From a virus: 47,741 bases of DNA. The DNA is taken from the IMG/VR virus record IMGVR_UViG_3300031825_000390, positions 1 to 47,741 of that record; one strand, 5' to 3'. The position numbers and the translations under genes were made by a program. Positions within the stretch are counted from its first letter, which is position 1. The number at the start of each line of letters is the position of its first letter. The notes beneath the pieces are model-generated. The model searched no databases, had not been told where the DNA came from, and saw only the letters and a list, made by a program, of their open reading frames with translations. Positions 6,397 through 46,823 of this stretch are shown here, piece by piece.

Positions 6397-6411
6397 GTAG
6401 GTAATGCTTAC
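6397..6411. promoter_or_regulatory. Second operator GTAGGTAATGCTTAC, inside a second leftward promoter
   Basis: Imperfect copy of the 15-bp operator 35 bp from the first. On the minus strand it lies between a -35 TTGACT (plus 6412-6417) and a weaker -10 TATCGA (plus 6390-6395, 16-bp spacer), a possible second promoter PL2. Two operators about three helical turns apart fit cooperative repressor binding. Confidence 0.65.
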
Positions 6412-6489
6412 AGTCAACTTAGGTGGCGAACGTTCTTGATTTGTTCCTATCGCTGAGTCAGGGTGTCGCAGCCTCACAGGGAGGAGACG

Positions 6490-6750: not shown

Positions 6751-6762
6751 GGAAGCGGGGCT

Positions 6763-7680: not shown

Positions 7681-7686
7681 CGAGGT

Positions 7687-8415: not shown

Positions 8416-8418
8416 TTG

Positions 8419-8483
8419 GTAGCCAATACCTACCACGCTTGCACCTACTGTAGGTGTTGACCAAGCAGGTAGGCTGTGCCTAC
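8419..8483. promoter_or_regulatory. Right operator cluster, three palindromes
   Basis: Within 65 bp there are GTAGCCAATACCTAC (8419-8433), the perfect palindrome CACCTACTGTAGGTG (8442-8456, half-sites back to back in the opposite order) and GTAGGCTGTGCCTAC (8469-8483). The outer two are variants of the PL operator. Centres lie 23 and 27 bp apart. Together they occupy nearly the whole 76-bp gap between the repressor and cro, the layout of a lambda-like OR. Confidence 0.8.
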
Positions 8484-8486
8484 ATT
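8457..8486 (+). promoter_or_regulatory. Rightward early promoter PR
   Basis: -35 TTGACC (8457-8462), 18-bp spacer, -10 TACATT (8481-8486). The spacer holds the operator at 8469-8483, exactly as in PL1. A start site 6-7 bp after the -10 falls on the ATG of the Cro-like gene at 8492, so the transcript is predicted to be leaderless. Confidence 0.75.
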
Positions 8487-8491
8487 GGGCC

Positions 8492-8710
8492 ATGACAGTC
8501 ACCATTCGCGAATTGGCCGAACGCGCAGGGGGTATCAAGAGCTTCGCCCGTCAGCTCGGGGTGAAGCATCAGTCCCTGTACTCTTGGCATAAGGTGCCCG
8601 CTGAGCGCGTTCTCGAAATCGAACGCATCACAGGCGTATCCCGCCACGTCCTGAGGCCCGACATTTACGGGCCCCCTCCCTGTCCCCTTTCGCCGGAGTC
8701 CGCCGTATGA
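8492..8710 (+). CDS. Cro/YdaS-like regulator
   Basis: A 72-residue HTH protein (TIRELAERAGGIKSFARQLG, then VKHQSLYSWHKVPAERVLEI), the YdaS/Cro pattern found opposite CI-type repressors. It would compete for the operator cluster and favour lytic growth. There is no ribosome-binding site and the ATG falls at the predicted PR start site, suggesting leaderless translation. It is followed by early rightward genes. Confidence 0.85.
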   Translation: MTVTIRELAERAGGIKSFARQLGVKHQSLYSWHKVPAERVLEIERITGVSRHVLRPDIYGPPPCPLSPESAV

Positions 8711-8859
8711 CGCGCGCGCTCCGTCCCCTTTCCGCTCCTTCCTGTGAGCCCCTCGGCGCCGGCGCGGCGGGCAGGGGGCAGGCCGATGCGTTCGCAAGCG
8801 CTCCGCAGATCGCGGATAGCTGCGTCGAGGGCGGGGCTGGTGAGGTGGCGGCGGGTCAT
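8665..8859 (-). CDS. Doubtful small minus-strand ORF
   Basis: A 64-residue reading frame on the minus strand starting MTRRHLTSPALDAAIRDL, with a helical N-terminal half and a Gly/Arg-rich tail that runs antisense into the 3' end of cro. No ribosome site is visible. G+C at codon position 3 does not decide between this frame and a Gly/Ala-rich plus-strand frame at 8707-8922. One of the two may be real, or neither. Confidence 0.25.
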   Translation of the reverse strand: MTRRHLTSPALDAAIRDLRSACERIGLPPARRAGAEGLTGRSGKGTERARHTADSGERGQGGGP

Positions 8860-8993
8860 GACGCCAGCTTGGCCGATGGATCGCCCGCGGTCACCGCGAA
8901 TGCAGTGGGAGGTTTCGCATGAGCACGCAAAATGTTGACGTTGCCCCCGCCGGCACGATGGCCGGAGAGGCATGCTTTCAAAAGCTTTGCACC

Positions 8994-9275
8994 TCAGTCG
9001 GTGCGTCGCGCGTCGCGAGCTATCTTGCAATGTTCGTCAAAGATGGCCTCGGCCTGCAGGATCGCCTTCTCTACATCGAAGGGGTACCGGCCGATATTCT
9101 TCCGCTCCTTGCCGATCTCGATGCGGATGCGTCGCTCGATCTCGTCAATCTGCGCCTCGTCAAGTTGGCCTTTTCGTGCTGCGCGGGTGATATCGACGTA
9201 GAGCATCAGGGTGGCGAGGCCGCTGCTCATCCGCACCATCTCGTCAGCCGTCTTCGGAACCATCCAGTTCTGCAT
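8994..9275 (-). CDS. Hypothetical 93-residue helical protein, minus strand
   Basis: Starts at an ATG with a strong AGGAG site 7 bp upstream. The product is charged and helical (KGQLDEAQIDEIERRIRIEI, then GKERKNIGRYPFDVEKAILQ). G+C at its codon position 3 is about 78 percent against about 62 percent for the overlapping plus-strand frame, supporting this strand. It is an isolated minus-strand gene inside the rightward early region, so it is probably expressed separately, possibly in the lysogen, and its transcript would be antisense to the early mRNA. Confidence 0.65.
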   Translation of the reverse strand: MQNWMVPKTADEMVRMSSGLATLMLYVDITRAARKGQLDEAQIDEIERRIRIEIGKERKNIGRYPFDVEKAILQAEAIFDEHCKIARDARRTD

Positions 9276-9340
9276 CCCTATCTCCTGCTCGCGAGGGCCT
9301 TCCTTCTACCGCGCGCCCGCACTGTCGAGAACAGCGCAGC

Positions 9341-9829
9341 ATGAACAAGCTCGCGCGTCCGCACCGCGAGGCGGACTATCTCACCCTCAAGGGCGCCATG
9401 CGGCGCCTCGTGGAAGCCTGCGGCGGCGTCGAGAGCGCGGCGGCGGTGACCCGGACAGGGTTTCAGACACTCTCGAAATACGGGCTCCCGAAGGAGGCCG
9501 TCTTCGTGCCCGTGGACGTGGTGGCGGATCTCGAAGCTGATGCCGGCGAACCGCTGGTGACGCGAGCGCTGGCGGCGCTCGCGGGCCACGTGCTGGTGCC
9601 GTTGCCCCACGGGGATGCCGGCAAGGGGCGCTGGTATCGCCACATATCCGAGATCGCGAAGGATGTCGGCAGTGTCGTGCAGCGCCTGGGGGAGGCGCTG
9701 GAGGACGATGGCGAGGTGTCGAAGGCCGAGATGCGCGCCCTTGCCTTGCGCGAGCGCGTTCAGCACGCGATCGCCGAGCTTGCCACCCTCGACCAAGCCT
9801 TGGCCGGCCTTGAGCGGGGAGGGGGCTGA
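9341..9829 (+). CDS. Phage regulatory protein, CII-like candidate
   Basis: A 162-residue protein with an N-terminal HTH-like region (GAMRRLVEACGGVESAAAVT, then FQTLSKYGLPKEAVFVPVDV) followed by a helical C-terminal half (IAKDVGSVVQRLGEALEDDG). The layout resembles CII-type phage regulators that choose between lysis and lysogeny, and the position after cro and before the replication gene fits. The family assignment is tentative. Its stop overlaps the next start (TGATG). Confidence 0.65.
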   Translation: MNKLARPHREADYLTLKGAMRRLVEACGGVESAAAVTRTGFQTLSKYGLPKEAVFVPVDVVADLEADAGEPLVTRALAALAGHVLVPLPHGDAGKGRWYRHISEIAKDVGSVVQRLGEALEDDGEVSKAEMRALALRERVQHAIAELATLDQALAGLERGGG

Positions 9830-10020
9830 TGCGCCGGGCGCCCTGCTATGCCACGCGGCCATTGCCGCCGATCGAGCGGATGGAATGGCCCGTGCGGACG
9901 CTTCATCCGTTTCGCCCCTTGGTGCTGGCAGAGGGCGGGGTGCGCCTGCCTCTGACACTGGACCGGATCGAAATCGTGACGCTGGCACGCGTGCGCTTTC
10001 TTGAGCGGGTGGCGGCGTGA
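9829..10020 (+). CDS. Small hypothetical early protein
   Basis: A 63-residue Arg-rich protein (MRRAPCYATRPLPPIERM at the start; LTLDRIEIVTLARVRFLERV near the end). Its ATG overlaps the upstream stop by one base, showing translational coupling. No domain recognised. It lies between the CII-like gene and the primase-polymerase gene. Confidence 0.6.
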   Translation: MRRAPCYATRPLPPIERMEWPVRTLHPFRPLVLAEGGVRLPLTLDRIEIVTLARVRFLERVAA

Positions 10021-10048
10021 ATATGGTTTGCGAAGCGGGGTGTGGCCT

Positions 10049-12625
10049 GTGACCATGCTCGAAGCTGCGTTGCACTACGCCCTTGTGCTCGGCTGGCGGA
10101 TCTTCCCGTGCGACCCTCACCCTGATAAGCCGCGCTCGAAGCGGCCTCTGGTGGTGGCGGACAAGGGTCCGGACGGGAAGCCGATCGAGGGCACCGGCTG
10201 GCCTTTGAAGGCCACCACGGACGAAGCGCAGATCCGCGCATGGTGGGCGAGGTGGCCCAATGCCTTGATCGGTATGGCTCCCGGCTGGGCTGGCGGCTAT
10301 GTGGTGGATCTCGATCCCAAGGGCGAGAGCGTCGAGGCAGTAGAGGCGCGCCTCGCCGAGGTGCTCGGCGGCCCGCTGCCGGCCGGCCCGCGCACCATCA
10401 CGCAATCGGGCGGCCGGCACCTGTGGTTCCGCCGGCCGGAGGGGGCACATTTCCCCAATGACCCACCTGGGCTGAAGAACATCGATATCCGCTGTGACGG
10501 CGGCTATGTGATCCTGCCGCCGAGCGTGCTGGCGAACGGTAACGCCTATCGGTGGGAGGGCGAGCCCTTTGACCCGGAGACGGCGCCGGACGTGCCGCCC
10601 GCGCTCCTGAAGCTGATCGCTGATCGCAAGCTGCATCGGCATGACCATGATGGCCCGGCCCTCTCCCCCCGCGACAGCGGGCCGGCGCGCGTGCTTGCCT
10701 CCGACAGGCCGGGCGAGGAGGCGAAGCGCCGCTATGCCCGTGCGGCCCTCGATCGGATCGCGGCGGATCTCGCCCGCGCCCCGCAGGGGACACGCGGCAC
10801 GGCGCTGTTCACGGCCGCCTGCCAGCTGGGGCGCTTCGTCGCCGCCGGCGCGATCTCCGAGCGCGAGGCACTCGCCGCCCTGGAGGATGGAGCCGACGCC
10901 AACGGCCTGATGCGAGAGGACGGGCGCAACCGCGTGTCCCGAGACATCCGGCGGGGTCTCGATACAGGAGCCGGCGACGCGGCGGACGTGATCGCCCGCC
11001 TCGATGAGGTTGCGCGCGAGGCCGAGGAGCGGCGGCGCTCCTTCGGCGGCACCCGTGCGCCGGAGCCGCCCCTCCCGGATGGGGCGGTGCCCGTACCGCC
11101 CTCGGCCGAGCCCGATGGGGAGGAGTGGGCGCCTCCGGCAAACAAGGCCGAGTTGGACGCCATGACGGCGGCGCTGGATGCCGCAGTGTTGGGCGACGCG
11201 GCCGAAGGCGAGGAAGAAGAGGAAGGCCCGGAAGCCGCGGGCGGTGAGGTGCGGCAAGCGCGCGATTGCGGCTTCGACATTGACGATCTGAATGCGGAGT
11301 GGAGCCTCGTGCTGATGGGGTCGCGCGCCGTCATGGTGCAGGAGCAAGCCATAGCGCCCATAGACGAACGGCTTCGTATCCTGACGATCGAGGCATTTCA
11401 CCAGTGGCTTGCCAACACCTACACCGAAACAGTCTCCCCCGATGGCAAGGTGAAGGGGATGACGCATGCCAAAAGATGGTTCAACCACCCCAAGCGGCGG
11501 CAGTATAGGGGGATCGAGTTCTTTCCGAACCCTGATGGCGCCAAGAGCACGCCCGGTTATCTGAACCTGTGGCGCGGCTTTTCAGTGAAGCCGAGGAAGA
11601 AGGGCTCCTATGCCATCTTCCGCGATCACCTGCTGAACAATGTGTGTGAGGGAGACCCCCAACTATTCCGGTGGGTGTGGGGATGGTTCGCGCATCTGGT
11701 GCAGCGGCCCCGCGAGAGGATCGGTACCGCGATCGTCATGCGCGGGAAGATGGGCACCGGAAAGACGAAGGTGGGGGAGGTCATGGGTTCGCTAGCCTCC
11801 TCCCATTACTTCGCCGTGGATGATCCCCGCTACGTGGTAGGACAGTTCAATGCACACATGGCCACCTGCCTACTCTTGCAGGCGGAAGAGGCCGTGTGGG
11901 CCGGCGACAAGGCGGCCGAAGGTCGATTGAAGGGCCTTGTCACCTCGAAATTCCAAATGATCGAAGCAAAGGGCATCGATCCCATCCGGATCATGAACTA
12001 TGTCCGGCTGATCATGACATCGAATGAGGATTGGGTCATCCCAGCGGGCAAGGATGAGCGCCGCTTCTGTGTCCTCGATATCAACCCACGCTGCGCGCAG
12101 AACATCGATTACTTCCGCGAGATGGATCAGGAGCTTGATGCAGGTGGGCGGGAGGCCTTGCTGCACGATCTCCTTGCCTTCGACCTCGCAACGGTTGACC
12201 TGCGCAAGATCCCACGGACGAAGGCGCTGCTTGAACAGAAGATGCGCTCGCTGGACACGGTGGAGGGCTGGCTCCTGGACCGGCTCAAGGCCGGCGCCGC
12301 GACGGCGGGGGCAGAACGGTGGGTCGAGGCGCTGCCCTGCGCCACGCTCTTCGACGATTACGTGGCGTGGTCTGACAAGCTCGGGGTGCGGCGCAAGAGC
12401 GATCCGACCGGGTTTGGCATCAAGCTAACGAAGATGCTGCCGGGCCTGAAGCGGGCGAAGCGGATGATCGAGTATTCGCCGGCGCAGATGAAGCGCGTGT
12501 GGTGCTACCTGTTGCCTTCTCTCGATGCCTGCCGCGCCGCCTTCGGGCGCGAGATGGGGCAGGAGATGGATTGGGAGGCGGACGATGCCGCGCCCGCCCC
12601 TGAGTATCCCGACGACATTGAATAG
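10049..12625 (+). CDS. Primase-polymerase fused to a DUF5906/SF3-like helicase
   Basis: About 858 residues. The N-terminal ~200 residues are a bifunctional Prim-Pol domain: LEAALHYALVLGWRIFPCDP, then GYVVDLDPKG with the metal-binding Asp pair, and TQSGGRHLWFRRP. A middle linker is rich in Glu/Ala/Pro. The C-terminal half is a DUF5906-type helicase: Walker A GKMGTGKT (566-573), then QAEEAVWAGDKAAEGRLKGL and IMTSNEDWVIPAGKDERRF. It would unwind and prime phage DNA. I chose GTG 10049, which has a GGGG site 8 bp upstream; ATG 10055 is equally possible. A candidate origin lies directly downstream. Confidence 0.9.
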   Translation: MTMLEAALHYALVLGWRIFPCDPHPDKPRSKRPLVVADKGPDGKPIEGTGWPLKATTDEAQIRAWWARWPNALIGMAPGWAGGYVVDLDPKGESVEAVEARLAEVLGGPLPAGPRTITQSGGRHLWFRRPEGAHFPNDPPGLKNIDIRCDGGYVILPPSVLANGNAYRWEGEPFDPETAPDVPPALLKLIADRKLHRHDHDGPALSPRDSGPARVLASDRPGEEAKRRYARAALDRIAADLARAPQGTRGTALFTAACQLGRFVAAGAISEREALAALEDGADANGLMREDGRNRVSRDIRRGLDTGAGDAADVIARLDEVAREAEERRRSFGGTRAPEPPLPDGAVPVPPSAEPDGEEWAPPANKAELDAMTAALDAAVLGDAAEGEEEEEGPEAAGGEVRQARDCGFDIDDLNAEWSLVLMGSRAVMVQEQAIAPIDERLRILTIEAFHQWLANTYTETVSPDGKVKGMTHAKRWFNHPKRRQYRGIEFFPNPDGAKSTPGYLNLWRGFSVKPRKKGSYAIFRDHLLNNVCEGDPQLFRWVWGWFAHLVQRPRERIGTAIVMRGKMGTGKTKVGEVMGSLASSHYFAVDDPRYVVGQFNAHMATCLLLQAEEAVWAGDKAAEGRLKGLVTSKFQMIEAKGIDPIRIMNYVRLIMTSNEDWVIPAGKDERRFCVLDINPRCAQNIDYFREMDQELDAGGREALLHDLLAFDLATVDLRKIPRTKALLEQKMRSLDTVEGWLLDRLKAGAATAGAERWVEALPCATLFDDYVAWSDKLGVRRKSDPTGFGIKLTKMLPGLKRAKRMIEYSPAQMKRVWCYLLPSLDACRAAFGREMGQEMDWEADDAAPAPEYPDDIE

Positions 12626-12660
12626 GCCCGCGCCCTACCTTGAGGTGGGGCGCGGGCGCG

Positions 12661-12877
12661 AGGTGGGGCGCGATAACGCATTGATTTATAAGGTCGCGCC
12701 CTACCTGCCCCACCTGCCCTACCTTTTCTCACACGTACGCGCGCGCCTGCGCGCAACAGGCCGATTTGGATGGGCAGAGGGGACGAAGTGCATCTTCCAG
12801 AAAGTGCGCTGAAAGGTGGGGCAGGTGGGGCAGGTAGGGCGCCGCCTTTCGTATCAACGGGTTATCGCGCCCCACCT
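12661..12877. repeat. Long imperfect inverted repeat with iterons, candidate replication origin
   Basis: Arms 12661-12726 and 12812-12877 are inverted copies that align without gaps, about 57 of 66 positions identical, separated by 85 bp. Each arm contains GGTGGGGCGCGATAAC, a TTGAT core and a GC-to-AT transition, then CTACCTGCCCCACCTGCCC. Further copies of the GGTGGGGC/GGTAGGGC unit lie at 12643-12668 and 12898-12915. This non-coding block occupies the gap 12626-12926, immediately after the Prim-Pol/helicase gene. Dyad-symmetric iterons beside a replication initiator suggest an origin. Confidence 0.7.
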
Positions 12878-12905
12878 CTCTTTTCTTTTGAGAGAGAGGT
12901 GGGGC
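12869..12905. repeat. Hairpin with 13-bp perfect stem
   Basis: GCCCCACCTCTCT (12869-12881) pairs with AGAGAGGTGGGGC (12893-12905) around an 11-base pyrimidine-rich loop. It is not followed by a T-run, so it is not a typical terminator. It contains the same GGTGGGGC unit as the inverted repeat and ends 22 bp before the next gene. Confidence 0.6.
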
Positions 12906-12926
12906 AGGTAGGGCAGGGAGAGGGAC

Positions 12927-13511
12927 ATGGCCGAGGGGGTGGACATCGAAGCGCTCGTGGGCTGGGCCTATCGGGTGCAGTGCGTGGACCGTATGGCCGG
13001 GCTGATGGATGTCGCTTGGGGCGAGGCCGGGCCGTCGTTCCGCTCTGCGACGCATGCGATGCTGGATTTCGCCGCGCTCGGGGTGCGGGTGGACAGCTCG
13101 CCGGGCTTCGTGGTCGCCATGGGTGCGACAGCGCAGGACGATGCGCTTGTGATCCATGACGCTGTGCTGCGCCTGCCGGCCGAGGCCTTCGCCCTTGTGG
13201 TCGCGCATGCGAAGGGCGGGAGCCGCCCGCCGTGGCACGGGATCGAGGCCGAGGCGCTGGTGGCGGATACGGATCGGCGCGGGCGAGTGCGCGTGATGCT
13301 CGGCACGGATCGCCGGCCCGTCGCTTGCTGCCTCCGGCACAAGGTCGATCCCGCGTTGGTGGAGTTCAGCCGGGCCCAGTATGTGGTGTGGTGGGAGGCG
13401 CTCGTGGTGCTCGCCGGCGAGCTTGCGGGGCGGCTGGAGGGGAGCCAGCCCCTCGCTCCTGCAGCACCTCGGGAGCCGTGGTTCCTGCCGGCGCTCGCCT
13501 ATATTGAGTAG
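12927..13511 (+). CDS. Hypothetical 194-residue phage protein before the late genes
   Basis: Begins at ATG 12927 with an AGGGAGAGGGA ribosome site. Mostly helical (MAEGVDIEALVGWAYRVQ at the start; AQYVVWWEALVVLAGELAG near the end). No recognised domain. In many phages the gene between replication and packaging regulates late transcription, and this is a possible role here, but nothing in the sequence shows a DNA-binding or antitermination motif. Confidence 0.7.
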   Translation: MAEGVDIEALVGWAYRVQCVDRMAGLMDVAWGEAGPSFRSATHAMLDFAALGVRVDSSPGFVVAMGATAQDDALVIHDAVLRLPAEAFALVVAHAKGGSRPPWHGIEAEALVADTDRRGRVRVMLGTDRRPVACCLRHKVDPALVEFSRAQYVVWWEALVVLAGELAGRLEGSQPLAPAAPREPWFLPALAYIE

Positions 13512-13594
13512 CTTTGGGTTGAAGCATGTTAGAAATTATGGATGACTATGAACTAAGATCTAAACGGTGACTCCTTTTCGACTCGGACTGAAAA

Positions 13595-14245
13595 ATGGCA
13601 CTAACGAGAGATCAAAAAACAATATCAAGAATTCTGGCTTCCGAGGCAAATAACGTTGTGCAAGAGGAATACTCTTATACTCAAGAACATCAAATAACCG
13701 CTAGCATTGCTGAGCGGCTAAAGACAATAAGTAGGAATATGCAGCTTGGAAAAACTGAAATAGCAATTGAAAAACAGGATATTAAAGATCGCGGTGGCGA
13801 ATCTGACGAATATTGGATTGGTGCAGATCTGTTTTTATCATTATCAACCAATGGTCCCGGTAGTTTTGATAAATCGCTAATAATACAAGCAAAGAAAATG
13901 CCCGCCTCAATAGATAATAAACTTATAGAAAAATGCGAATACATGCTATTGCACACATCTGCGTCTTACATATGGGTATATTCACAGAAAGAAATTCGTG
14001 TTATTCATGCAAATGAAATACTGTCATATAATAAAAGGAAAATTAGTGATATTGATGGAATAACATTATATGGTTTTTTTATAAATATATTTGAGTGCAA
14101 CGCAGGTAGTAAAAAAATTGGAATTCCATTTAATTCAAATCGAAAGAAAATGATAGAAGAAAAAATACGTGAATTTGAAGCAAAGAACGGGTTAGACATA
14201 AAAATATCTCATAAAAACAAACGAAAATCCTTCCGGGATATCTGA
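13595..14245 (+). CDS. AT-rich cargo gene with PD-(D/E)XK-like nuclease core
   Basis: A 216-residue protein in a stretch of about 30-35 percent G+C, far below its neighbours, so recently acquired. The region around residues 70-101 (ESDEYWIGADLFLSL, then SLIIQAKKM) fits a restriction-endonuclease-like core: Asp 78 in a GAD turn, then Gln 98-Ala-Lys 100 on the next strand. The rest is helical and lysine-rich. It sits alone between the last early gene and the HNH/terminase genes, a typical moron site. A nuclease acting on competing phage or host DNA is inferred; a non-catalytic relative is possible. Confidence 0.7.
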   Translation: MALTRDQKTISRILASEANNVVQEEYSYTQEHQITASIAERLKTISRNMQLGKTEIAIEKQDIKDRGGESDEYWIGADLFLSLSTNGPGSFDKSLIIQAKKMPASIDNKLIEKCEYMLLHTSASYIWVYSQKEIRVIHANEILSYNKRKISDIDGITLYGFFINIFECNAGSKKIGIPFNSNRKKMIEEKIREFEAKNGLDIKISHKNKRKSFRDI

Positions 14246-38307: not shown

Positions 38308-39456
38308 ATGGTCAACAATGTCAGCATGGCTGTTTGGTGTATAGGGCGGGCCGCCGCCGCCGATTCCCAGATGGAGGCGCATTTTAACTATTGGAGACTC
38401 GCGGGAGAACGCACTTCAATATACAAAAAGTCGTCAAATGACTTCGTAGAAGTTGGTATAATGTTGACTAGACCGAAATTAGTTGACGAAGTAAAAATAT
38501 ACTTCCCGGAAAAAATTGAAAGAAACGCAATATCGGACTGTTCTCCATATTTTAAAGATCCGCTTATTTGTCAAGGTATATTCAATGAGCCGCTAAAAAT
38601 AACCGATCATGGTGTTGGTGGGATGCGATGTTTTGAATTAACAAACGAAATATCATCATTGCCATTTTGTTGTATTCATAAATTCCTGCAGAATGGGGCC
38701 GAGATCGACCAATCAGAGTTAGAATTAAATTATAAAAGTGATGGAACAATATTAACAATACGTAGTTCTGCAATGTCTGACTATCATAGTCAGGATGAGG
38801 CATCATCTGTTCCATTGTATTTTAGATTGAGAATCGTTGTTCCATCTCAAAATCCTTTTGTTAAATCAATAAATACGTCCGAACGATTTTTTCAAAGCGG
38901 TTTTGAGCAGGTCGAATATGTTGATTTTAGGTTAAACGAGGCTAGGACCCTGCCGAATAACATTGAAGTTATGATGAAGAATGAGCGGGCTTCCCGGGGA
39001 AGGGTAGAGTTAACCACGGTCGCGTTTCTGACCGCAATTCCCATTACATCGCAACTATCCACATCAAGCAGTCAGCCTCATAAATTTCGTATATTGGAAG
39101 ATAGAATATGGAATAAATATATATCCGGAGGAATTCCGAGCGGAATGTTAGTCTATCACTGGAAGAGTGAGAAGGACGTCGAGATACCGTATTTCTCGGC
39201 TTTTGTTCGTATTCAGACTCGAAGATCTGGATGGAAGAGCATAACTATTTATCTTATCATCGCGTTTCTGTTCGGAGTTCTTGGAAATTTGACGGCGGCA
39301 GTCATGCAAAGCATAATCCCTATCCCGTGGGCGATTCGGTCGTCGGGGGAGGCGCAGGGATCCCCGGAGGGGCAAGAGAATGCAGCTCGAGCAAGTTCTT
39401 TGCCGTCAAAGCCGGCCGCTGGTGGTTCGGGAGGGGCTGCCGATGCTCGTCCGTGA
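38308..39456 (+). CDS. Membrane-anchored accessory protein of unknown function
   Basis: A 382-residue protein read from ATG 38308, which has a GGGGGGAGAG site; an upstream in-frame ATG lacks support. The first 300 residues look soluble and beta-rich (FVEVGIMLTRPKLVDEVKIY, YFRLRIVVPSQNPFVKSINT). One strong TM helix lies near residues 311-332 (SITIYLIIAFLFGVLGNL), followed by a 50-residue Pro/Gly/Ala tail. Its G+C content is low, so it was acquired separately. The pattern suggests a membrane-tethered sensor or surface protein such as a superinfection-exclusion or defence protein, but no family is recognised. Confidence 0.75.
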   Translation: MVNNVSMAVWCIGRAAAADSQMEAHFNYWRLAGERTSIYKKSSNDFVEVGIMLTRPKLVDEVKIYFPEKIERNAISDCSPYFKDPLICQGIFNEPLKITDHGVGGMRCFELTNEISSLPFCCIHKFLQNGAEIDQSELELNYKSDGTILTIRSSAMSDYHSQDEASSVPLYFRLRIVVPSQNPFVKSINTSERFFQSGFEQVEYVDFRLNEARTLPNNIEVMMKNERASRGRVELTTVAFLTAIPITSQLSTSSSQPHKFRILEDRIWNKYISGGIPSGMLVYHWKSEKDVEIPYFSAFVRIQTRRSGWKSITIYLIIAFLFGVLGNLTAAVMQSIIPIPWAIRSSGEAQGSPEGQENAARASSLPSKPAAGGSGGAADARP

Positions 39457-39928
39457 ACATAATTTGCGAAAGCTTGAATTGCTTGGCGGGGCGAGCGATT
39501 CAGTTCGTGCAACGCATGCGGAGGCCCTGGAGTTTCTCCTGCCGCTTTCCCTTGACTATCCAAATATCGAGCATTGGTATCGACGTAAAGTTATTCCTGG
39601 ATTTTATAGGGGTACAAGGCAAATAATTAGGGTGGAGCGCGATGGACGTCTGGTCGGTCTCGGCATTGCCAAAAATGAATGCGGAGAGCGGAAGATATGC
39701 ACTGTCCGGGTTTCTCCTGCTTACTTTGGTCGGGGGATAGGCGTTCGTTTGTTCGATGGGCTGTTGCGTTGGCTCGACTTTGATCAGCCTTGTTTGACCG
39801 TTTCGGAGGAACGGCTTCCGCAATTTCATAAGATCTTCGATTACTATGGATTCAAGATGACGTCGAGCCAGCTTGGGCTCTATACTCCTCGTTCAGTCGA
39901 AGTTGGTTACAACGAAGAGTGTCTTTGA
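39443..39928 (+). CDS. GNAT-family acetyltransferase
   Basis: A 161-residue GNAT protein: acetyl-CoA-binding motif A around CTVRVSPAYFGRGIGVRLFD, with the C-terminal QFHKIFDYYGFKMTSSQLGL typical of the fold. Starts at 39443 (overlapping the previous gene by 14 bp, good GGGAGGGG site) or 39380 (also with GGAGGGG). Its 3' end overlaps the 3' end of the convergent kinase gene by 22 bp, so the two transcripts are antisense to each other. It may acetylate a protein, a tRNA or a small molecule; the target is unknown. Confidence 0.8.
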   Translation: MLVREHNLRKLELLGGASDSVRATHAEALEFLLPLSLDYPNIEHWYRRKVIPGFYRGTRQIIRVERDGRLVGLGIAKNECGERKICTVRVSPAYFGRGIGVRLFDGLLRWLDFDQPCLTVSEERLPQFHKIFDYYGFKMTSSQLGLYTPRSVEVGYNEECL

Positions 39929-40506
39929 GCTATTTCGATAAAGCTCAGCAGCGAGGGCCACGTCGTCGTCGGGATCGTTCCGAACTGTAGTCTTAGCTCG
40001 CTTGCGTAGCTTTCTGCGGCGAGCCTTTCGTTCGCCATCTCTTCGGCGAGCTGCTGATGCGATCGCGGTGGCCTGTGGCGCGACAGATCGTGTCGACGTT
40101 GTAAATCGACTTCATGCGCAGGCTTCTCGACTAACGCTATCGCTGTGGGTCTGATCGACGCAATCACTTCCAGCGGTACCGTGAGAAGCCCGTCTCGGGT
40201 CGGTACGGTGGCATGGGCGTCTATCAGGACAGGATGTCCTCGCATCTGCAGGCGGTATCGGATAAGTAGGTCAGCCAGGCGAAATTGATCTCCTGCGGCT
40301 TCCTGAGCGGTTCGGGTTGAAAAGCTTTCGGGCGTGGGGCTAGTTCCTGCTCGTAAGAGTTCGCTCGCACTCACGTATCTCAAAGTTGGAAGAGCTCTTA
40401 CAGCGTCGAGGCAAGCTGTAGTCTTGCCCGAGCCGGAGATGCCGAATACCAATATGCATGGATCTTCAGTGACCGAACAGGCGGTCGAGTTGCCGGTTGG
40501 CCTCAC
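39907..40506 (-). CDS. P-loop kinase, archaeal AdkA-like
   Basis: Read from GTG 40506, which has a GGAGAAG site 4-7 bp upstream, giving 199 residues. Walker A is GISGSGKT (22-29). The following parts PVLIDAHATVPTRDGLLTVP, then ALVEKPAHEVDLQRRHDLSR with a conserved RR..D, and ERLAAESYASELRL match archaeal-type adenylate kinases (AdkA) and related AAA_18 nucleotide kinases. It would phosphorylate a nucleotide or nucleotide-like substrate. It overlaps the ASCH gene by 41 bp and is the last gene of the trio. An unannotated upstream ATG at 40677 gives non-conserved extra residues. Confidence 0.75.
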   Translation of the reverse strand: MRPTGNSTACSVTEDPCILVFGISGSGKTTACLDAVRALPTLRYVSASELLRAGTSPTPESFSTRTAQEAAGDQFRLADLLIRYRLQMRGHPVLIDAHATVPTRDGLLTVPLEVIASIRPTAIALVEKPAHEVDLQRRHDLSRHRPPRSHQQLAEEMANERLAAESYASELRLQFGTIPTTTWPSLLSFIEIAQRHSSL

Positions 40507-40885
40507 CGTACTTCTCCATGTACATGTAGGACTGAGGCGGCGTAAAATTTGAGATAAGCTCGCTCGGAGCGATTGGTTCTGGCAACCGGTGAACTTGACC
40601 AATTTGAAGGGCAAAGGCTTGCGTCCGCCCATCAAAATATTCGTCGAAAGCGCTCCTGTTGATGCCAGAAAACTCAAACGTCAGTTCCCATAGGCGTGCT
40701 GGGTCGCTTTGTATAATTTTCTGAATGTCAAATTCTGCGACTATTTTACTAACCGGAGAGGTTGAGTATATGACAACTCTTGTTACGTCAGTGCGGCCGA
40801 AGATCCTCCGACGAAACTCAAAGCGTTTCGATCCATCAAGTATGCGATCAACATATATTGGTTTAATCGATAATAAGGCGCGCAT
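40466..40885 (-). CDS. ASCH-domain protein
   Basis: A 139-residue ASCH (PUA-related) protein: ALLSIKPIYVDRILDGSKRF followed by EFRRRIF, containing the signature GxKxxExR with Lys 20, Glu 23 and Arg 25, then VVIYSTSPVSKIVAEFDI. ASCH proteins are linked to RNA binding or RNA modification, and some are RNases. The start at 40885 matches the conserved start of the fold; an upstream ATG at 41017 adds non-conserved residues. It overlaps the upstream GNAT-fusion gene by 23 bp, so the two are co-translated. Confidence 0.88.
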   Translation of the reverse strand: MRALLSIKPIYVDRILDGSKRFEFRRRIFGRTDVTRVVIYSTSPVSKIVAEFDIQKIIQSDPARLWELTFEFSGINRSAFDEYFDGRTQAFALQIGQVHRLPEPIAPSELISNFTPPQSYMYMEKYGEANRQLDRLFGH

Positions 40886-41909
40886 TAACCCCTCCAGACG
40901 CAATGATGGACCTGAATTGTGTTTGTGATAGTGCACGGAGGTCCCACCTTGGCTGCTCTGAGACCAGCCCATCATCGATGAGCTGTCCACGCGTGATGCG
41001 CCTATTGAAAGCCGCATTATATGTCAACTTGGCGACCGCCATTCGCTGCTCCTCATACCAGGCGCGCAGTTCATTGTCGTCGAACACGCTTCGTGGGCGA
41101 GTGTACGAGAGGAAGTCGTCAAGCGAGCCGAAACTTCGTCGTGGGCGGACCTCCTCGACAACGCAAACGGACGTGACAACCGAACGGAAACGAGCCGGCG
41201 CCACGTGGTCCGTGGTTCGGTAGAATATGACTGCGTCGCCTGGCCGCATGCGAGTTAGTGCTAATTTTGAGATGTAAACCTTATGTATCGTATTGGTATG
41301 AGAAACGTCTTGTATGATCTGTGTAGGTTCGTTATTCAAAATAGAGTCCGGCAATAGTCTTGTGTGAAATTCGGGATATATGGCCAATAGCCAAAAATTG
41401 TGATCTAACGTATGTATAAAAGGGTAATCCAGTAATATATTTCCTGAAAAAGTATTTAGGTCGCGGACAAATACGCGTTCAGTTCCATTGTCGGTTGTTT
41501 TCGTTGCCGATTCAATAAATCCATATCGCTCAAATAGGTCGATCAATTCGGCGTGAACGTCGAAAATTGTCACGTAAATTGAATCTGCGTCGATCGATAA
41601 GGCTGTGTCGAAGATTTTTTTGATAACTCGCTCGCCTAGCTTTGTTCCTCTTCCGATGATTTTCAATGTACCTACTTTTAGCCATTTCCGATTTGGCAAG
41701 TTTGGGTTCGTATCGGTTATGGGTCCAGTTTCCGTCTTAAGATATATCATTCCAGAAAGTTCTAGTTCGTCTTGGACAATATAGACATCCTCATCGTACT
41801 TACTTTGAAACCAGGTTGTAAACTCTCTATACGCTACCTTGAGACTGTCAAAAAATGGGTCAGATATGGAGAGGTCACGAAATTTCGTGAGTTTGAGTTG
41901 CCTCGACAT
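40863..41909 (-). CDS. GNAT acetyltransferase fused to PUA/ASCH-like domain
   Basis: A 348-residue two-domain protein. ATG 41909 was chosen because GGGAGG lies 5 bp upstream; ATG 41954 is possible but lacks one. Residues about 1-150 are GNAT (KVGTLKIIGRGTKLGERVIK, then IFDVHAELIDLFERYGFIES). Residues about 195-348 look PUA/EVE-like (HKVYISKLALTRMRPGDAVI, FRSVVTSVCVVEEV), a fold that reads modified bases or RNA. It begins a minus-strand trio with the ASCH protein and the kinase. The fusion suggests acetylation directed to RNA or to a base-bound target. Confidence 0.8.
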   Translation of the reverse strand: MSRQLKLTKFRDLSISDPFFDSLKVAYREFTTWFQSKYDEDVYIVQDELELSGMIYLKTETGPITDTNPNLPNRKWLKVGTLKIIGRGTKLGERVIKKIFDTALSIDADSIYVTIFDVHAELIDLFERYGFIESATKTTDNGTERVFVRDLNTFSGNILLDYPFIHTLDHNFWLLAIYPEFHTRLLPDSILNNEPTQIIQDVSHTNTIHKVYISKLALTRMRPGDAVIFYRTTDHVAPARFRSVVTSVCVVEEVRPRRSFGSLDDFLSYTRPRSVFDDNELRAWYEEQRMAVAKLTYNAAFNRRITRGQLIDDGLVSEQPRWDLRALSQTQFRSIIASGGVNARLIID

Positions 41910-42601
41910 TCGTTCCTCCCCCGACTGTTCGATTCGCTTTTGCGATTTGGACATGCGCCAATGCCGCGCGTCTAGGGGGTGGTGCGACCAGAGGTGTCGG
42001 CTGTGCTACCGATTCAATTCGCTCTACGCACTGTTCAGCCCCACATTTCCCGGCTGATCAGTGCCGGAGATGACCGTTGGGAAGTGAGGCCTAGTCCGCC
42101 GAGGGGGGGCAGCGATGCGGAGATAGACGAGGCCTCGGTCTCAGCGTGGGGAAGCCGCGTGCCAGGATCCGCGCTCTCTCGGTCGGTCGGGCCTACCTCG
42201 ACCAAGAGACGTCGCTTTTTCGGGTATCGATCGGAGCGAGTGGGCAAAGGCCTCGATAGCCAGCGCAAGTGACGGGACTGATGAAACGGCCTGATCTTCC
42301 TTCGAGGGCGGGATGGAGCCCCCTCGGTGAGAAAGAGCCAACCGCGAGCCGTTGCGGCTGGCTGCAATAACTTGCTTTACCACATAGCCCTAGGTGGTTG
42401 ATCTTTCGAGCGAACACCGCCCCGCCCCTGGGCACCATTTTACCATCCAGAGACGTCTCGTAACGTCCAATTCCGATGGCAGATCAAGTGCTTAGCCCCC
42501 TTTGATGGTCCGGCAGGGTCCATAGTGGTCCGGTTGAATCTCGCGCACGCGTAGGCATGCTTGTAGGCATCGATTTTGTGCCTACAGCGAGATGCCTACA
42601 G
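41910..42601. other. 692-bp non-coding junction between prophage A cargo and element B
   Basis: No reading frame here has convincing codon usage or a ribosome site. The region contains the promoter region of the trio (right part of 41910-42050), a stem-loop at 42338-42365 (AGCCAACCGC against GCGGCTGGCT, one mismatch), the tRNA-end-like att core at 42423-42437, direct repeats TGGTCCGG at 42506-42513 and 42526-42533, and the GTAGGCA repeat block before the integrase. Confidence 0.7.
42423..42437 (+). other. Candidate att core, tRNA 3'-end copy CGCCCCTGGGCACCA
   Basis: The 15 bases match the 3' end of a tRNA: the end of the T-stem, acceptor strand CCTGGGC, discriminator A and CCA, as in tRNA-Phe-type genes with a GCCCAGG 5' end. 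No T-loop or other tRNA parts are present upstream, so this is only a copy of the end. It lies 165 bp before a DUF4102 integrase that reads away from it, the standard layout of attL for such elements. It may also be attR of prophage A. Confidence 0.6.
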
Positions 42602-42607
42602 ATGCCT
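42551..42607. repeat. Nested repeats GTAGGCA/TGCCTAC before the second integrase
   Basis: Half-sites GTAGGCA at 42551 and 42563 and inverted TGCCTAC at 42580 and 42593, plus a partial ATGCCT at 42602, are arranged symmetrically about position 42575. They end at the integrase start codon and could be integrase/AlpA arm sites or an operator. The half-site equals that of prophage A's operators. Confidence 0.75.
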
Positions 42608-43804
42608 CTCACGGATCTGGCGTTGCGCAACGCCAAGCCAAAAGACAAGCCCTACAAGCTATTTGACGGCGGTGGCCTTCACCTGCTGGTTAATCCCAAC
42701 GGAAGCCGGATCTGGCGCCTCGCCTATCGCTTCGCCGGCAAGCCGAGGCAGGTTTCCTTCGGCCCCTATCCCACCGTTTCGTTGGCCGAGGCGCGCGAAA
42801 AGCGCGAAGACGCCAAGAAGCTGCTCCTCGATGGCAAGGACCCCTCCACGGTCCGCAAGGTCGAGAAGGTGACCGCAGCCATCTCCGAGGGCAACACGTT
42901 CTCCCGTTTGGTCGGCGAGTACATCGAGCGGCTCGAGATGCGGAACTCGGCGCCCGCGACCATCGCAAAGAACAAGTGGCTATTGGAGAGTTTGGCAGGT
43001 CCGGCACTGGGTCGCCGGCCGATCAGCGAGATCACGCCCTTCGAGGTCCTGGCGGTGCTGCAGCAGGTAGAACGCAGCGGCCGGCGCGAATCGGCGCGGC
43101 GCCTGCGCTCTGCCATCGGCAGCGTGTTCCGGTTCGCGATCGCCACGCTTCGCGCCCAGAATGATCCCACGTCTGCCCTGAAGGACGCGCTTGAACGTCC
43201 GAAGGTGAAGCATCGCTCGGCTCTGACGGATCCAAAGAAGCTTGGCGGGCTGATGCGCGCGATTGATGAGTATGACGGCTGGCCGACCCTGCGGGCCGCG
43301 CTGTTGTTCACGGCCCTCACGTTCGCCCGTCCCGGAGAGGTTCGCGGGGCTCGATGGAGCGAGATTGACTTCCACAAGGCAACCTGGAGCATCCCGGCGG
43401 AACGCATGAAGATGCGCCGACCGCATGTGGTGCCCATCTCTCGCCAAGCGCTCGCGGTGCTCGCCGATATTCGCCCGCTGACTGGCGCCAGCGAGCTGAT
43501 CTTCCCGTCGATCCGCTCGAACAAGAAGCTCCTGAGCGAGAATGCCATGAACTCGGCGCTACGGCGCATGGGATTCACCCAGGACGAGATGACCTCCCAC
43601 GGGTTCCGGGCGGCGGCCAGTTCGATTCTCAACGAGAAGGGGCACTCTCCCGACGTGATCGAGGCGGCGCTGGGGCATCTGGACCAGAACGAAGTCCGCC
43701 GAGCCTACAACCGCGCGACATATTGGCCGGAGCGCGTGGTGCTCATGCAAGTGTGGGCAGACCTGCTGGACGATTTCCGAGCGATGAAGGGGCAGAGGGC
43801 TTAA
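42602..43804 (+). CDS. int: DUF4102-type tyrosine integrase of element B
   Basis: A 400-residue P4-type integrase starting MPLTDLALRNAKPKDKPYKL (Arm DNA-binding_3 domain, residues 1-90). The catalytic residues are Arg 243 in FARPGEVRG, His 333 and Arg 336 in HGFRAAAS, His 359 in ALGHLDQ and Tyr 369 in RRAYNRA. The ATG 42602 matches the family N-terminus; ATG 42557 would extend into the repeat block. These integrases usually insert into tRNA 3' ends. It is unrelated to prophage A's integrase in domain layout and marks a separate element. Confidence 0.95.
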   Translation: MPLTDLALRNAKPKDKPYKLFDGGGLHLLVNPNGSRIWRLAYRFAGKPRQVSFGPYPTVSLAEAREKREDAKKLLLDGKDPSTVRKVEKVTAAISEGNTFSRLVGEYIERLEMRNSAPATIAKNKWLLESLAGPALGRRPISEITPFEVLAVLQQVERSGRRESARRLRSAIGSVFRFAIATLRAQNDPTSALKDALERPKVKHRSALTDPKKLGGLMRAIDEYDGWPTLRAALLFTALTFARPGEVRGARWSEIDFHKATWSIPAERMKMRRPHVVPISRQALAVLADIRPLTGASELIFPSIRSNKKLLSENAMNSALRRMGFTQDEMTSHGFRAAASSILNEKGHSPDVIEAALGHLDQNEVRRAYNRATYWPERVVLMQVWADLLDDFRAMKGQRA

Positions 43805-43890
43805 ATTGGCAATGGCGTGAAATACGACATGTGGGCTGTTTATATAAACGGATCCGGCGCAGCGTGAAATGTAATTTAGGGGGTTCTGAA

Positions 43891-44376
43891 ATGTCAGATG
43901 ACGCCAATAATGAGTCAGAAACAAAAGAATCAGCATACGATGATGAAGTTACGCGGGAAAAATTCTCAATTTCGGATGACCGCATTAGATATTGGTCAAC
44001 TCTTGATATGTGGACTCCATCTGAAGCGTCGGCATTGATTCTTCTTCTAGATCCAGACTATGTAAATGTAAAATATATTGAACGTATGTCATGCAATAGT
44101 GTGATATTGAAAAAATTTAAAGACAATAAAAGGATCATCGAAAGATCCGATAATCTAACAGGTGACGATTCACCAAAAGATATAATCGAAGTATTGATTT
44201 CTAAAAATGTTAGTATTTCCGAAAGATTACTTAATAATGTAAATGTATATCAAGAACTTAATTCAAATAAAATAAATAAGCTAAAAGTAATAAATAAAAA
44301 GCTACGAAACGATATTGATACTATAAAAAAGAACATGAATGAGAGGAGAATTGATAGTATGAAGAAAATTATTTGA
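43891..44376 (+). CDS. AT-rich hypothetical gene of element B
   Basis: A 161-residue acidic then lysine-rich protein (MSDDANNESETKESAYDDEV at the start; LNSNKINKLKVINKKLRNDI near the end, coiled coil). The centre (YWSTLDMWTPSEASALILLL) resembles a small helical domain. It has an AGGGGG site 8 bp upstream. Its G+C content is about 33 percent, marking it as cargo. No function recognised. Confidence 0.65.
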   Translation: MSDDANNESETKESAYDDEVTREKFSISDDRIRYWSTLDMWTPSEASALILLLDPDYVNVKYIERMSCNSVILKKFKDNKRIIERSDNLTGDDSPKDIIEVLISKNVSISERLLNNVNVYQELNSNKINKLKVINKKLRNDIDTIKKNMNERRIDSMKKII

Positions 44377-44388
44377 TATATATCGATA

Positions 44389-44622
44389 ATGAATACAGAA
44401 TATAAACCTGGAAGAAACAGCGGTATACCGCAGCGAGTTGAGTCGGACCTGAGGAGTATAGGGGTTAGTTTGAGCCACGACACAGTTAAATCCGTCTTAG
44501 ACGATTGCGCGGCGTTCATCGCTGAGGAGGGCGATCTCGACGCCTTGATTGAGAAGGCTCGCAAGCGCGGGTCGGCAAAGAAGTCCGAATTCGGGAAAAA
44601 TAATACGACTTCGGGCACATAG
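44389..44622 (+). CDS. Hypothetical 77-residue protein of element B
   Basis: A helical protein (SLSHDTVKSVLDDCAAFI, then DLDALIEKARKRGSAKK). It begins 12 bp after the previous stop and probably shares its transcript, but it has no clear ribosome site. No family recognised. Confidence 0.5.
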   Translation: MNTEYKPGRNSGIPQRVESDLRSIGVSLSHDTVKSVLDDCAAFIAEEGDLDALIEKARKRGSAKKSEFGKNNTTSGT

Positions 44623-44668
44623 CGGGGCGCTTCTGCCAAAACCATGACGGTCCAAAAAAGGAGCGTTC

Positions 44669-44881
44669 ATGGACGCAAAACCCCAAAATCCCAACGGCTT
44701 ACTTCGGCTTCATCAGATTGTCGGAGCTCGGGGCCTAATACCCATCTCCCGTTCGAGGTGGTATTCTGGTATACAGTCGGGCGAGTTTCCGAAGCCCGTC
44801 AAACTCGGCTCGCGGGCCGTCGCATGGCGTGCATCCGATATCGCCCTCCTCATCGAAAGAGGCGTGCGCGATGACGGCTGA
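44669..44881 (+). CDS. alpA: AlpA-family transcriptional regulator
   Basis: A 70-residue AlpA-type HTH protein: LLRLHQIVGARGLIPISRSR, then WYSGIQSGEFPKPVKLGSRA and VAWRASDIALLIERG, the usual signature. In P4-like elements AlpA activates the integrase/excision genes. It has an AAAAGGAG site. Its 3' end overlaps the next gene by 11 bp. Confidence 0.92.
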   Translation: MDAKPQNPNGLLRLHQIVGARGLIPISRSRWYSGIQSGEFPKPVKLGSRAVAWRASDIALLIERGVRDDG

Positions 44882-45059
44882 CCATAGTCACGGTGCCCGC
44901 CGTCGTCCGATACTCCCGATGTCCGCGCAGTTGCTCAGCTCAACCGGAATTGACGGCTTCAGGCTAGAGGATCGCACCGCCGATCGCAGGAAGCTTATCC
45001 GGGCGCTGTGCATTCGCCTCTCCGAACGTCTCCGTGGATGCGGCAGGCCCCGGAAGTAG
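44871..45059 (+). CDS. Small basic hypothetical protein of element B
   Basis: A 62-residue Arg-rich protein (MSAQLLSSTGIDGFRLEDRT, then RRKLIRALCIRLSERLRGCG) read from ATG 44871. It is translated together with AlpA (11-bp overlap). Possibly a small nucleic-acid-binding protein, but no family recognised. Confidence 0.5.
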   Translation: MTADHSHGARRRPILPMSAQLLSSTGIDGFRLEDRTADRRKLIRALCIRLSERLRGCGRPRK

Positions 45060-45095
45060 TCGCGACAACCTCAACCTATCGCCAACTCCCTGCAC

Positions 45096-45111
45096 GCGCG
45101 CTCCGGCGCGC
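45096..45111. other. Small GC hairpin before the DUF927 gene
   Basis: GCGCGC (45096-45101) and GCGCGC (45106-45111) flank a TCCG loop in the 114-bp gap between the small basic gene and the DUF927 gene. It is not followed by a T-run. It may be a weak attenuator. Confidence 0.35.
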
Positions 45112-45173
45112 GCGCAGGCCCTTGTCTGCGGCCATGTGAGCCATTGGTGGCTCCATCAACTCAGGATTCCAAC

Positions 45174-46823
45174 ATGACGCGCGCGTACAAGATGCAATGG
45201 GTCCAGCCTATCGAGATCCATCACAACATCGACGACAATTTCTACTCGGTGAAGGTCGACTTCGACACCGTTAGTGGTGGCCGTTCGACCGCGATTATTC
45301 CTCGATCCCAGATCGATGACCCCCGCGGAGCTAAGCGAACCCTCGCAGCGCAGGGCGCCCGCATGCCGGAGGATTGGCTCGAGGATCTGCGGCTGGCGCT
45401 GATCGCGGAGGGCTGCGACATCGTTCATTCGACAAGCATCCTTGGATGGCACGGCCGCGCCTACCTGTTCCCAGATGGCGCTGTCGGCCATGGCCTCCGG
45501 TTGGTCCCCACTCACCCCGTTCCAGCTCGGCAATGCGCGAAGGGCAGGACCAAGGCATGGCGCGAAGGGCTGGCTGAGGCGTGTGCGAGTTCCAGCTATC
45601 TCACCTTCGCGGTGAGTGTCGCATTCGCCGGGTGCCTGCTGCGACCGGTCGGCCAGGACGAGGGGGCAGTGTTCCACTTCATCGGCGAGTCCTCGACCGG
45701 CAAGAGCCTGGCCTCGACCGCGGCGCAGTCCGTCATCGAGAAGGCAGGACGGGAGTGCCTTCGCACTCATGACCTGACCGACCGTGCCCTCGAAGAGCAG
45801 GCTGCCCGCAGTAACGACTCGCTCCTCGTCCTCGACGAACTGGGTCGGATTGAGGGAACGCCCGCCAAGCGCCTCCAGCACGCTCAGAACCTTGCCTACA
45901 AGATGACCGGCGGGCAAGGACGCCAAAGATCCAACCGGGCGGTCTCCGACTTCGAGTTGCGCAACGTCCAGTACCTGCTTTTCGGGCTGTCATCCGGAGA
46001 GGAGCCCCTCGACGGCACCGGGATCCGACGGCGCAACGACGGCGAGCAGGTCCGCCTGATCGGCATTCCCGTGCCGGCTCGGGATGAGGGTGGAATCTTC
46101 GACCGGGAGCCGTCCGGAGAGCGCCGGGCAGAACTGGCCCGCCGTGCGGAGCTGGCGATCTGCGAGAATTATGGCCGCCCCATCCGGCGCTTCATGAAGA
46201 GGTTCCTTGCCGATCCAGAGGCCGAGCAGAGTGCCCGGGAGTATGTGGAGCGGTTCATGGCCAAGGCCGTTACGGCTCCCTCGCCTTTCGCCGAACGTTT
46301 CGCCCGCAAGTTCGCGGCGGTGTACGCGGCCGCGATGCTCGCCGCGCACTACAAGGTCGCGCCGTGGACGAAGAAAGCGGCCGCAGCCGCAATCCGCAAG
46401 GTGCATCGGCAGGCCTGGGAGATTGTGCGACCTGCCGGCTCCGCCGCTGACGATATGCTGGCCTGGCTGCGCGCCCACGCCGGCGACCCCAAGCTGTTCC
46501 CCAAGGTGGCCGAAGGGATGAAGGTGCGCCCGGCCACCGGGAAGACAATGTTCGGCATACGTCGCGATATCTCGGGTGTGTCGGGACTGGCACTCCTGCG
46601 TGACCGCCTGCCGGACATCGTGCCTGCGTGGCAGGCGGATGGTGTGTTGGCTTCCCTGAAGGCGCGCGGGTATCTCCTGCCCGGCAAGGAGGCGGGCCGC
46701 TATGTGCGCCAGATCCGCGTGAAAGGCCTGCATCCACCCCGGCGCCATTATGTGGTGTTCGATATCGCGCGAATTGCGGGACCTGCCAGGAATACGCCGA
46801 AGAAGGAACCGGATGCCGCCTGA
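45174..46823 (+). CDS. DUF927-type helicase/primase-associated ATPase
   Basis: A 549-residue DUF927 protein: ILGWHGRAYLFPDGAVG, then HFIGESSTGKSLAST with Walker A GESSTGKS (171-178), LLVLDELGRIEG with the Asp-Glu of Walker B near 221-222, and LLFGLSSGEEPLDG. DUF927 proteins are replication helicases of plasmids, satellites and genomic islands. The start ATG 45174 was chosen over an upstream ATG for lack of conservation. It is the main replication gene visible in element B and is followed by a terminator. Confidence 0.88.
   Translation: MTRAYKMQWVQPIEIHHNIDDNFYSVKVDFDTVSGGRSTAIIPRSQIDDPRGAKRTLAAQGARMPEDWLEDLRLALIAEGCDIVHSTSILGWHGRAYLFPDGAVGHGLRLVPTHPVPARQCAKGRTKAWREGLAEACASSSYLTFAVSVAFAGCLLRPVGQDEGAVFHFIGESSTGKSLASTAAQSVIEKAGRECLRTHDLTDRALEEQAARSNDSLLVLDELGRIEGTPAKRLQHAQNLAYKMTGGQGRQRSNRAVSDFELRNVQYLLFGLSSGEEPLDGTGIRRRNDGEQVRLIGIPVPARDEGGIFDREPSGERRAELARRAELAICENYGRPIRRFMKRFLADPEAEQSAREYVERFMAKAVTAPSPFAERFARKFAAVYAAAMLAAHYKVAPWTKKAAAAAIRKVHRQAWEIVRPAGSAADDMLAWLRAHAGDPKLFPKVAEGMKVRPATGKTMFGIRRDISGVSGLALLRDRLPDIVPAWQADGVLASLKARGYLLPGKEAGRYVRQIRVKGLHPPRRHYVVFDIARIAGPARNTPKKEPDAA

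Follow-up and report, generated by a model that had tools for sequence, protein, structure and literature searches.

What do the small, overlapping genes towards the right of virus contig IMGVR_UViG_3300031825_000390 do together? The window analysed here is this whole stretch of 47,741 bases, a virus contig with no host genome attached, and the genes in question (Table 1) encode a fusion of a GNAT acetyltransferase with an EVE domain, an ASCH-domain protein, an AdkA-like nucleotide kinase, a stand-alone GNAT acetyltransferase and a protein with a predicted membrane helix, here called MEM. We consider, with a probability of roughly 0.6, that all five belong to one mobile conflict module, which most likely serves abortive infection or phage exclusion and is built on a toxin-antitoxin (TA) pair of the GNAT-EVE/ASCH (PDC-M11, GevT/GevA) type. 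The core pair with an AAA_17 kinase has already been described; the five-gene version with MEM is new.

The first-pass annotation of this DNA had delimited a four-gene unit at 39443-41909. Its four open reading frames (ORFs) and their overlaps were recovered exactly as claimed (fusion/ASCH, 23 bp; ASCH/kinase, 41 bp; kinase/GNAT, 22 bp, tail to tail), and the domains it had named, those of the two GNATs, the AdkA-like kinase, the ASCH protein and the fusion, are supported by profile and fold matches. The unit was one gene short, as MEM, which lies outside that interval, had been missed. The end of MEM and the start of the stand-alone GNAT gene share 14 bp, and MEM lies inside the same block of low guanine-plus-cytosine (G+C) content as the other four genes. 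The lower G+C content that had been noted is real, being 0.37-0.57 across 38.2-42.0 kb against about 0.68-0.70 outside.

Table 1. Genes of the module, the dual-coding overlap, and features to the right of the module, in window coordinates.
Feature	Position	Strand	Description
MEM	38308-39456	+	382 aa; ATG behind GGGAGG; beta-rich N-terminal region, C-terminal transmembrane helix (predicted)
Stand-alone GNAT acetyltransferase	39443-39928	+	Acetyltransf_1 1.5e-5; GRGIG acetyl-CoA loop
AdkA-like (AAA_17) nucleotide kinase	39907-40506	-	GTG start behind GGAG
ASCH-domain protein (PDC-M11B, GevA homolog)	40466-40885	-	ZmASCH subfamily; predicted nucleic-acid-binding antitoxin
GNAT-EVE fusion (PDC-M11A, GevT homolog)	40863-41909	-	348 aa; ATG behind GGGGGAGGAACGA; predicted toxin
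Dual-coding overlap, 23 bp	40863-40885	-	Fusion C-terminus NARLIID-stop / ASCH start MRALLSI
Tyrosine integrase	42557-43804		Right of module
AlpA-like regulator	44669-44881		Pfam 5.7e-12
DUF927/SCCmec Cch-like helicase	45144-46823		

The GNAT-EVE fusion and its ASCH partner

The fusion and the ASCH protein matched the PADLOC profiles PDC-M11A (2.7e-126) and PDC-M11B (3.2e-46), respectively, PDC-M11 being a candidate-only phage-defence listing in that database; the Pfam matches of the fusion to EVE and GNAT, and that of the ASCH protein, were weak. A 2020 study by Bell, Wolf and Koonin found GNAT-EVE with ASCH, often with an AAA_17 ATPase, to be frequent in prophages and argued that modules of this kind are TA systems, noting that experimental tests were lacking for all of them (PMC7641849). 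In the lambda-like Escherichia phage PhiR47_2 (PV340567), a homologous pair located between cI and kil is annotated as the GevT toxin and the GevA antitoxin; the window fusion is 45% identical to the annotated GevT, and the ASCH protein is 47% identical to GevA. The toxin-antidote reading of the first-pass annotation is partly supported, agreeing with both the argument of Bell et al. and the GevT/GevA annotation. As the core pair with its AAA_17 kinase has been described, the grouping of four genes is in itself no novelty.

The PDC-M11 and GevT/GevA operons resemble the window in having a GNAT domain N-terminal to EVE, an adjacent overlapping ASCH gene, an AAA_17 kinase and a prophage location, and in comparison with GNAT-EVE/ASCH/AAA_17 operons the window adds the stand-alone GNAT, MEM and the convergent layout. 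The text of Bell et al. (PMC7641849) mentions neither of these two proteins, and PADLOC has no profile for MEM. The (PIN-)GNAT-EVE systems with a helix-turn-helix (HTH)-ASCH protein follow the same three-part logic, although the window fusion is of the short form (348 residues) and its ASCH protein is without the HTH domain. GNAT toxins of the TacT/AtaT type likewise combine a GNAT-fold toxin with a small partner gene, as predicted for the window, but here the partner is an ASCH protein rather than a ribbon-helix-helix antitoxin, the putative toxin carries an EVE domain, and the canonical R/Q-x-x-G-x-G/A acetyl-CoA loop is absent from the fusion. Across 186 sequences this loop reads [H/K/R]-G-T-[K/R/L]-[L/R]-G, and K58, K78, T81 and K83 of the GNAT half are near-invariant.

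An AlphaFold model of the fusion, built from 34 sequences with a mean predicted local distance difference test score (pLDDT) of 85.9, has two domains: a GNAT domain (residues 1-150), for which Foldseek returned PaiA (1tiq) and Naa50; and an EVE/ASCH fold (residues 160-348), which matched ZmASCH (5y6b) with a target template modelling (TM) score of 0.71-0.72 and THYN1 on 5mC DNA (5j3e) with 0.53. The PUA/ASCH/EVE fold that had been proposed for the second half of the fusion was thereby confirmed in the predicted structure. The best-conserved loop of the EVE half spans residues 179-210 (H182, P187-D-S-I-L, D201, N206 and K210), and residues 188-204 within it are the sole low-confidence part of the model. 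As model confidence is low exactly at the most conserved loop, this segment may become ordered only upon binding of a ligand or partner, as the model suggests.

The presence of THYN1 on 5mC DNA among the structural matches, together with the typical occurrence of GNAT-EVE in prophages, would also suit a role in base modification or anti-restriction, in which GNAT-EVE acylates a DNA base and so shields the phage genome, and the modified DNA is read by ASCH and EVE. Base modification was proposed by Iyer et al. in 2013, according to the account given by Bell et al., who themselves suggest that prophage GNAT-EVE may guard phages from host restriction (PMC7641849). We regard such a role as unlikely: the closest ASCH relative with a solved structure has single-stranded RNA as its substrate; genes this small and tightly overlapping are TA-like, and the homologous pair is annotated as toxin and antitoxin; and a membrane protein would be unexpected in a DNA-modification set.

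That closest relative is ZmASCH of Zymomonas mobilis (5guq and 5gus; 1.8e-22 to 5gus), a nucleic-acid binder that cuts single-stranded RNA (PMC5615036). The window protein belongs to the same subfamily and retains most of the nucleic-acid-contacting residues, with the ZmASCH pocket residues R32, Y47, T49, P51, Q127 and S128 present as R25, Y40, T42, P44, Q118 and S119. Among the RNase residues of ZmASCH, Tyr47 and Ser128 are invariant in the family, but Lys53 is replaced by S46 in the window and mostly by G or S in relatives, and RNase activity is not implied. Another ASCH protein, E. coli YqfB, is an amidohydrolase acting on N4-acylcytosines that hydrolyses N4-acetylcytidine and is inactivated by the T24A substitution (PMC6972931). 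By this precedent the window ASCH protein could be an eraser, removing a cytosine acetyl group added by the GNAT domain in a write/erase toxin-antidote pair, and its K20 and R25, which are kept in the family, do match K21 and R26 of YqfB. However, in the Lys-Thr-Glu triad of YqfB the position of the nucleophile T24 is occupied by glutamate (E23) in 20/20 aligned members. With the Thr nucleophile missing, a YqfB-type deacetylase role was rejected, and the write/erase pair is very improbable.

Among 165 fusion/ASCH pairs, which come from many phyla, 137 have an ATG as the ASCH start codon at the exact position giving the 23-bp overlap, and the kinase and stand-alone GNAT genes overlap tail to tail, by 4-74 bp, in 12 of the 12 convergent loci listed. 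Because it recurs in this way, the arrangement is beyond chance. Within the 23 bp, the fusion's final seven residues and the opening strand of the ASCH protein are encoded by the same bases. This overlap exceeds the usual short operon overlaps, and its conservation fits translational coupling, which would suit a pair that needs co-production.

Recurrence of the module

Relatives of the fusion came from a single scan of genomes, from scans of viral contigs, and from phages and plasmids; iterated profiles served to identify their partners. From each scan the best 80 genome or viral loci were kept, genome-wide sampling being partial. The profiles were built on loci that they later labelled, and the plasmid and genome-wide searches for MEM described below serve as an outside control. 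Among the 177 loci obtained, 14, including the window, carry the complete set of five, a further 15 have MEM but no stand-alone GNAT, and 103 have the fusion and ASCH only; a kinase is present at 60.

The exact convergent layout of the window was found in eight other alphaproteobacterial loci, from Methylobacterium (L004), Brytella (L019), Bradyrhizobium (L020 and L024), Microvirga (L021), Sphingobium (L022), Sphingomonas (L023) and Rhizobium (L025). DNA matches among these eight end at the module borders, and the flanks are unrelated. Other gene orders occur on plasmids of Pseudomonas (L008) and Nitrosophilus (L014), in Paenibacillus (L085) and on viral contigs (L106 and L116). When 106 fusions were placed on a maximum-likelihood tree, loci with all five genes fell in at least four separated parts, and explaining their distribution takes a minimum of six changes on well-supported branches; the five-gene state has therefore been gained or lost repeatedly. 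When the neighbours of 97 loci were clustered blindly, the top true families were the fusion family (GEV, 97), ASCH (96), the kinase (KIN, 40), MEM (20) and GNAT (11), the remaining large clusters being antisense shadow ORFs.

Two findings that would have refuted the first-pass annotation were not made: the genes do co-occur across unrelated mobile elements, and the set does not consist of ordinary housekeeping families. The recurrence of the module also bears on the suggestion that these are ordinary lysogenic-conversion cargo, that is, metabolic or stress genes with no defence role. The kinase and GNAT families are broad, which speaks for such cargo, but the core proteins strongly match candidate-defence profiles, and the set is rare and mobile, with the same combination assembled repeatedly, making ordinary cargo very unlikely.

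Several individual loci deserve mention. Five Rhizobiaceae loci (L032, L034, L035, L036 and L038) have two adjoining GEV systems, a fusion and MEM that lack an ASCH gene of their own and, on the opposite strand, a longer ASCH-GEV system, with a kinase in two. One locus (L187 in genome G140, 6355-14000) has MEM, GNAT, kinase and ASCH without the fusion, in whose place a large helicase-like ORF (9009-14000) adjoins ASCH. In the Methanothermobacter prophage and archaeal virus psiM100 (L017), a diverged fusion and ASCH (4001-5381) are at the edge of the inserted fragment IFa. In Lactobacillus prophage Lj965 (L010, 4301-4876), tRNA genes for Ser, Glu, Tyr and Phe lie directly upstream of the fusion/ASCH pair; tRNA genes were considered as a hint to the target and rejected, the Lj965 cluster being isolated, with no general ARAGORN pattern across the loci.

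MEM, the kinase and the stand-alone GNAT

The window MEM has no match in Pfam, NCBIfam, PADLOC or PHROGs, where only single relatives gave isolated weak hits, nor any sequence match in the PDB, and no catalytic signature was recognised in it. Its AlphaFold model (pLDDT 81.7) is beta-rich to about residue 306, followed by a helix at about 309-336, and Foldseek matches reached TM scores of at most 0.32 by query length; a glycine-receptor or M1-aminopeptidase fold (TM 0.12-0.32) was rejected. A hydrophobic C-terminal stretch is present in 28/28 complete relatives, and the invariant residues include H25, N27, W29, P67, D77, F92-N93, R173, R175, R208, N210, R213 and W268. Judged by its sequence and predicted structure, MEM belongs to no described family and is the only undescribed component of the module. 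It could be a membrane sensor, an anchor or a pore-type effector, and among the five proteins it is the likeliest to act at the membrane as a sensor or as a second effector.

MEM was also searched for independently of the fusion, on plasmids, in 385 alphaproteobacterial genomes and on viral contigs, the last with three alignments of closer relatives. On plasmids, all six records with MEM adjoin a fusion (6/6). Among the alphaproteobacterial genomes, MEM occurs in four, at five loci, each beside at least two of GEV, ASCH, KIN and GNAT; one of the four genomes was the search centre, picked for having the module, and the independent loci are those of G365, G140 and G194 and the second locus of G001. 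The viral-contig hits are all beside partners, most of them already within the fusion set. Elsewhere MEM is rare, being found in Pseudomonadota at large in the seed genome and G365, and in Bacillota in the seed genome alone. No MEM apart from GEV, ASCH, KIN or GNAT partners was seen in the plasmid, alphaproteobacterial or viral-contig searches. MEM also accompanies a longer GEV, an HTH-ASCH protein and a kinase in Paracoccus, and a longer GEV in G194. On these MEM-led searches, with partial genome sampling, MEM appears to be dedicated to this module.

The opposite strands occupied in the window, as in the other loci of this layout, and the many GEV/ASCH loci without MEM and GNAT, could mean that two independent cassettes are placed side by side, MEM-GNAT forming one system and GNAT-EVE/ASCH/kinase another, with the convergent junction merely a favoured layout. 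Several observations make this quite unlikely: MEM is co-oriented with and directly beside GEV/ASCH, without GNAT, in Rhizobiaceae and on viral contigs L138, L152, L154, L161, L168 and L169; in Paracoccus it is directly behind the kinase gene, with an 8-bp overlap; contig 30 of G001 has all five genes on one strand; and in the searches made MEM always stood beside such partners.

The kinase matched AAA_17 (1.8e-12), AdkA/PRK04040 (1.7e-13) and, at about 1e-5, the AdkA structures 1ki9 and 3h86. It shares the P-loop, the DxH motif and the LID arginines with archaeal AdkA, but is strongly diverged and located in a conflict operon. These elements are intact in the window protein (D96-x-H98 for the motif), and among 56 relatives the Walker A Gly/Lys are conserved in 98%, D96 and H98 in 100% and R137/R143 in 95-96%. 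The kinase retains an AdkA-like P-loop, acceptor-site Asp/His pair and LID arginines. The stand-alone GNAT is related to the GNAT half of the fusion, since both match phrog_13728, and 14 of 14 full-length relatives of it near a fusion are accompanied by MEM and the kinase.

A possible mechanism and the surroundings of the module

GNAT toxins stop translation through acetylation of charged tRNA, and modified bases or RNA are ligands of EVE and ASCH domains. At the present locus we infer toxicity of the fusion, an RNA target, an antitoxin role for ASCH and a function in defence, to which the accessory proteins would contribute. The module might work as follows: the ASCH protein, made by translational coupling, would keep the fusion silent, either by holding the toxin or by occupying the same RNA through its PUA-like pocket; infection would disturb the fusion/ASCH balance; the EVE domain would then read a modified base and place the acetyltransferase on RNA, most likely aminoacyl-tRNA, whose acetylation would halt translation; and the AdkA-like kinase would be a nucleotide-dependent regulator, while MEM, together with that kinase and the second GNAT, would tie toxin action to the membrane or to nucleotide state. 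In this scheme the tRNA target is conjecture, as is every role given to the accessory proteins.

Several points weigh against a conflict module of this kind. The open-access literature yielded no experiment on the family, and the GevT/GevA assignment rests on record annotation; a literature search for these two names returned unrelated papers only, plus one PhiR47 paper without mention of the pair. The acetyl-CoA loop of the fusion has K, R or L in place of the usual second glycine, so that use of acetyl-CoA is, from the sequences, not certain. No tRNA enrichment pointing to a tRNA target was found by ARAGORN on the loci. Some Rhizobiaceae have the fusion and MEM without their own ASCH, beside a second, longer GEV system. 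Finally, the bare pair, lacking kinase, GNAT and MEM, accounts for 103/177 loci, and the accessory genes are therefore not essential to the core pair.

GNAT-EVE/ASCH pairs are widespread in prophages and defence islands, with their mechanism left open in the literature found, and that a five-gene version with its own membrane protein recurs across lineages would mean that there is more to the system than the pair. A further proposal is that MEM founds an undescribed, C-terminally membrane-anchored family dedicated to GNAT-EVE/ASCH, turning the pair into a multi-component, membrane-linked immune system in which a sensor or effector in the membrane is controlled by the reading of modified bases (EVE and ASCH), by nucleotide sensing (the kinase) and by the second acetyltransferase. 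This proposal is tentative, and we consider it possible rather than probable. MEM is in any case a new family to look for in defence islands, and the dual-coding overlap, K58, K78, T81 and K83 of the fusion and the Y40/Q118/S119 pocket of the ASCH protein provide handles on the system.

As for the surroundings, megablast of the window returned no host or near phage relative, the Rfam search gave no match, and promoter and terminator counts at the locus equal those of shuffled sequences. No convincing direct repeats marking attachment sites were found, and an AT-rich ORF of 217 aa at 43723-44376 has no match. The first-pass annotation had placed the genes at the right end of a prophage. This holds for the left side, where tailed-phage genes for terminase, portal, capsid, tape measure, tail and endolysin are found; on the right, however, the position is a junction rather than an end, as a second integrative module follows at 42.6-46.8 kb. 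With its integrase, AlpA-like regulator and helicase (42557-46823), this looks like a second integrative element or a satellite adjoining the prophage.

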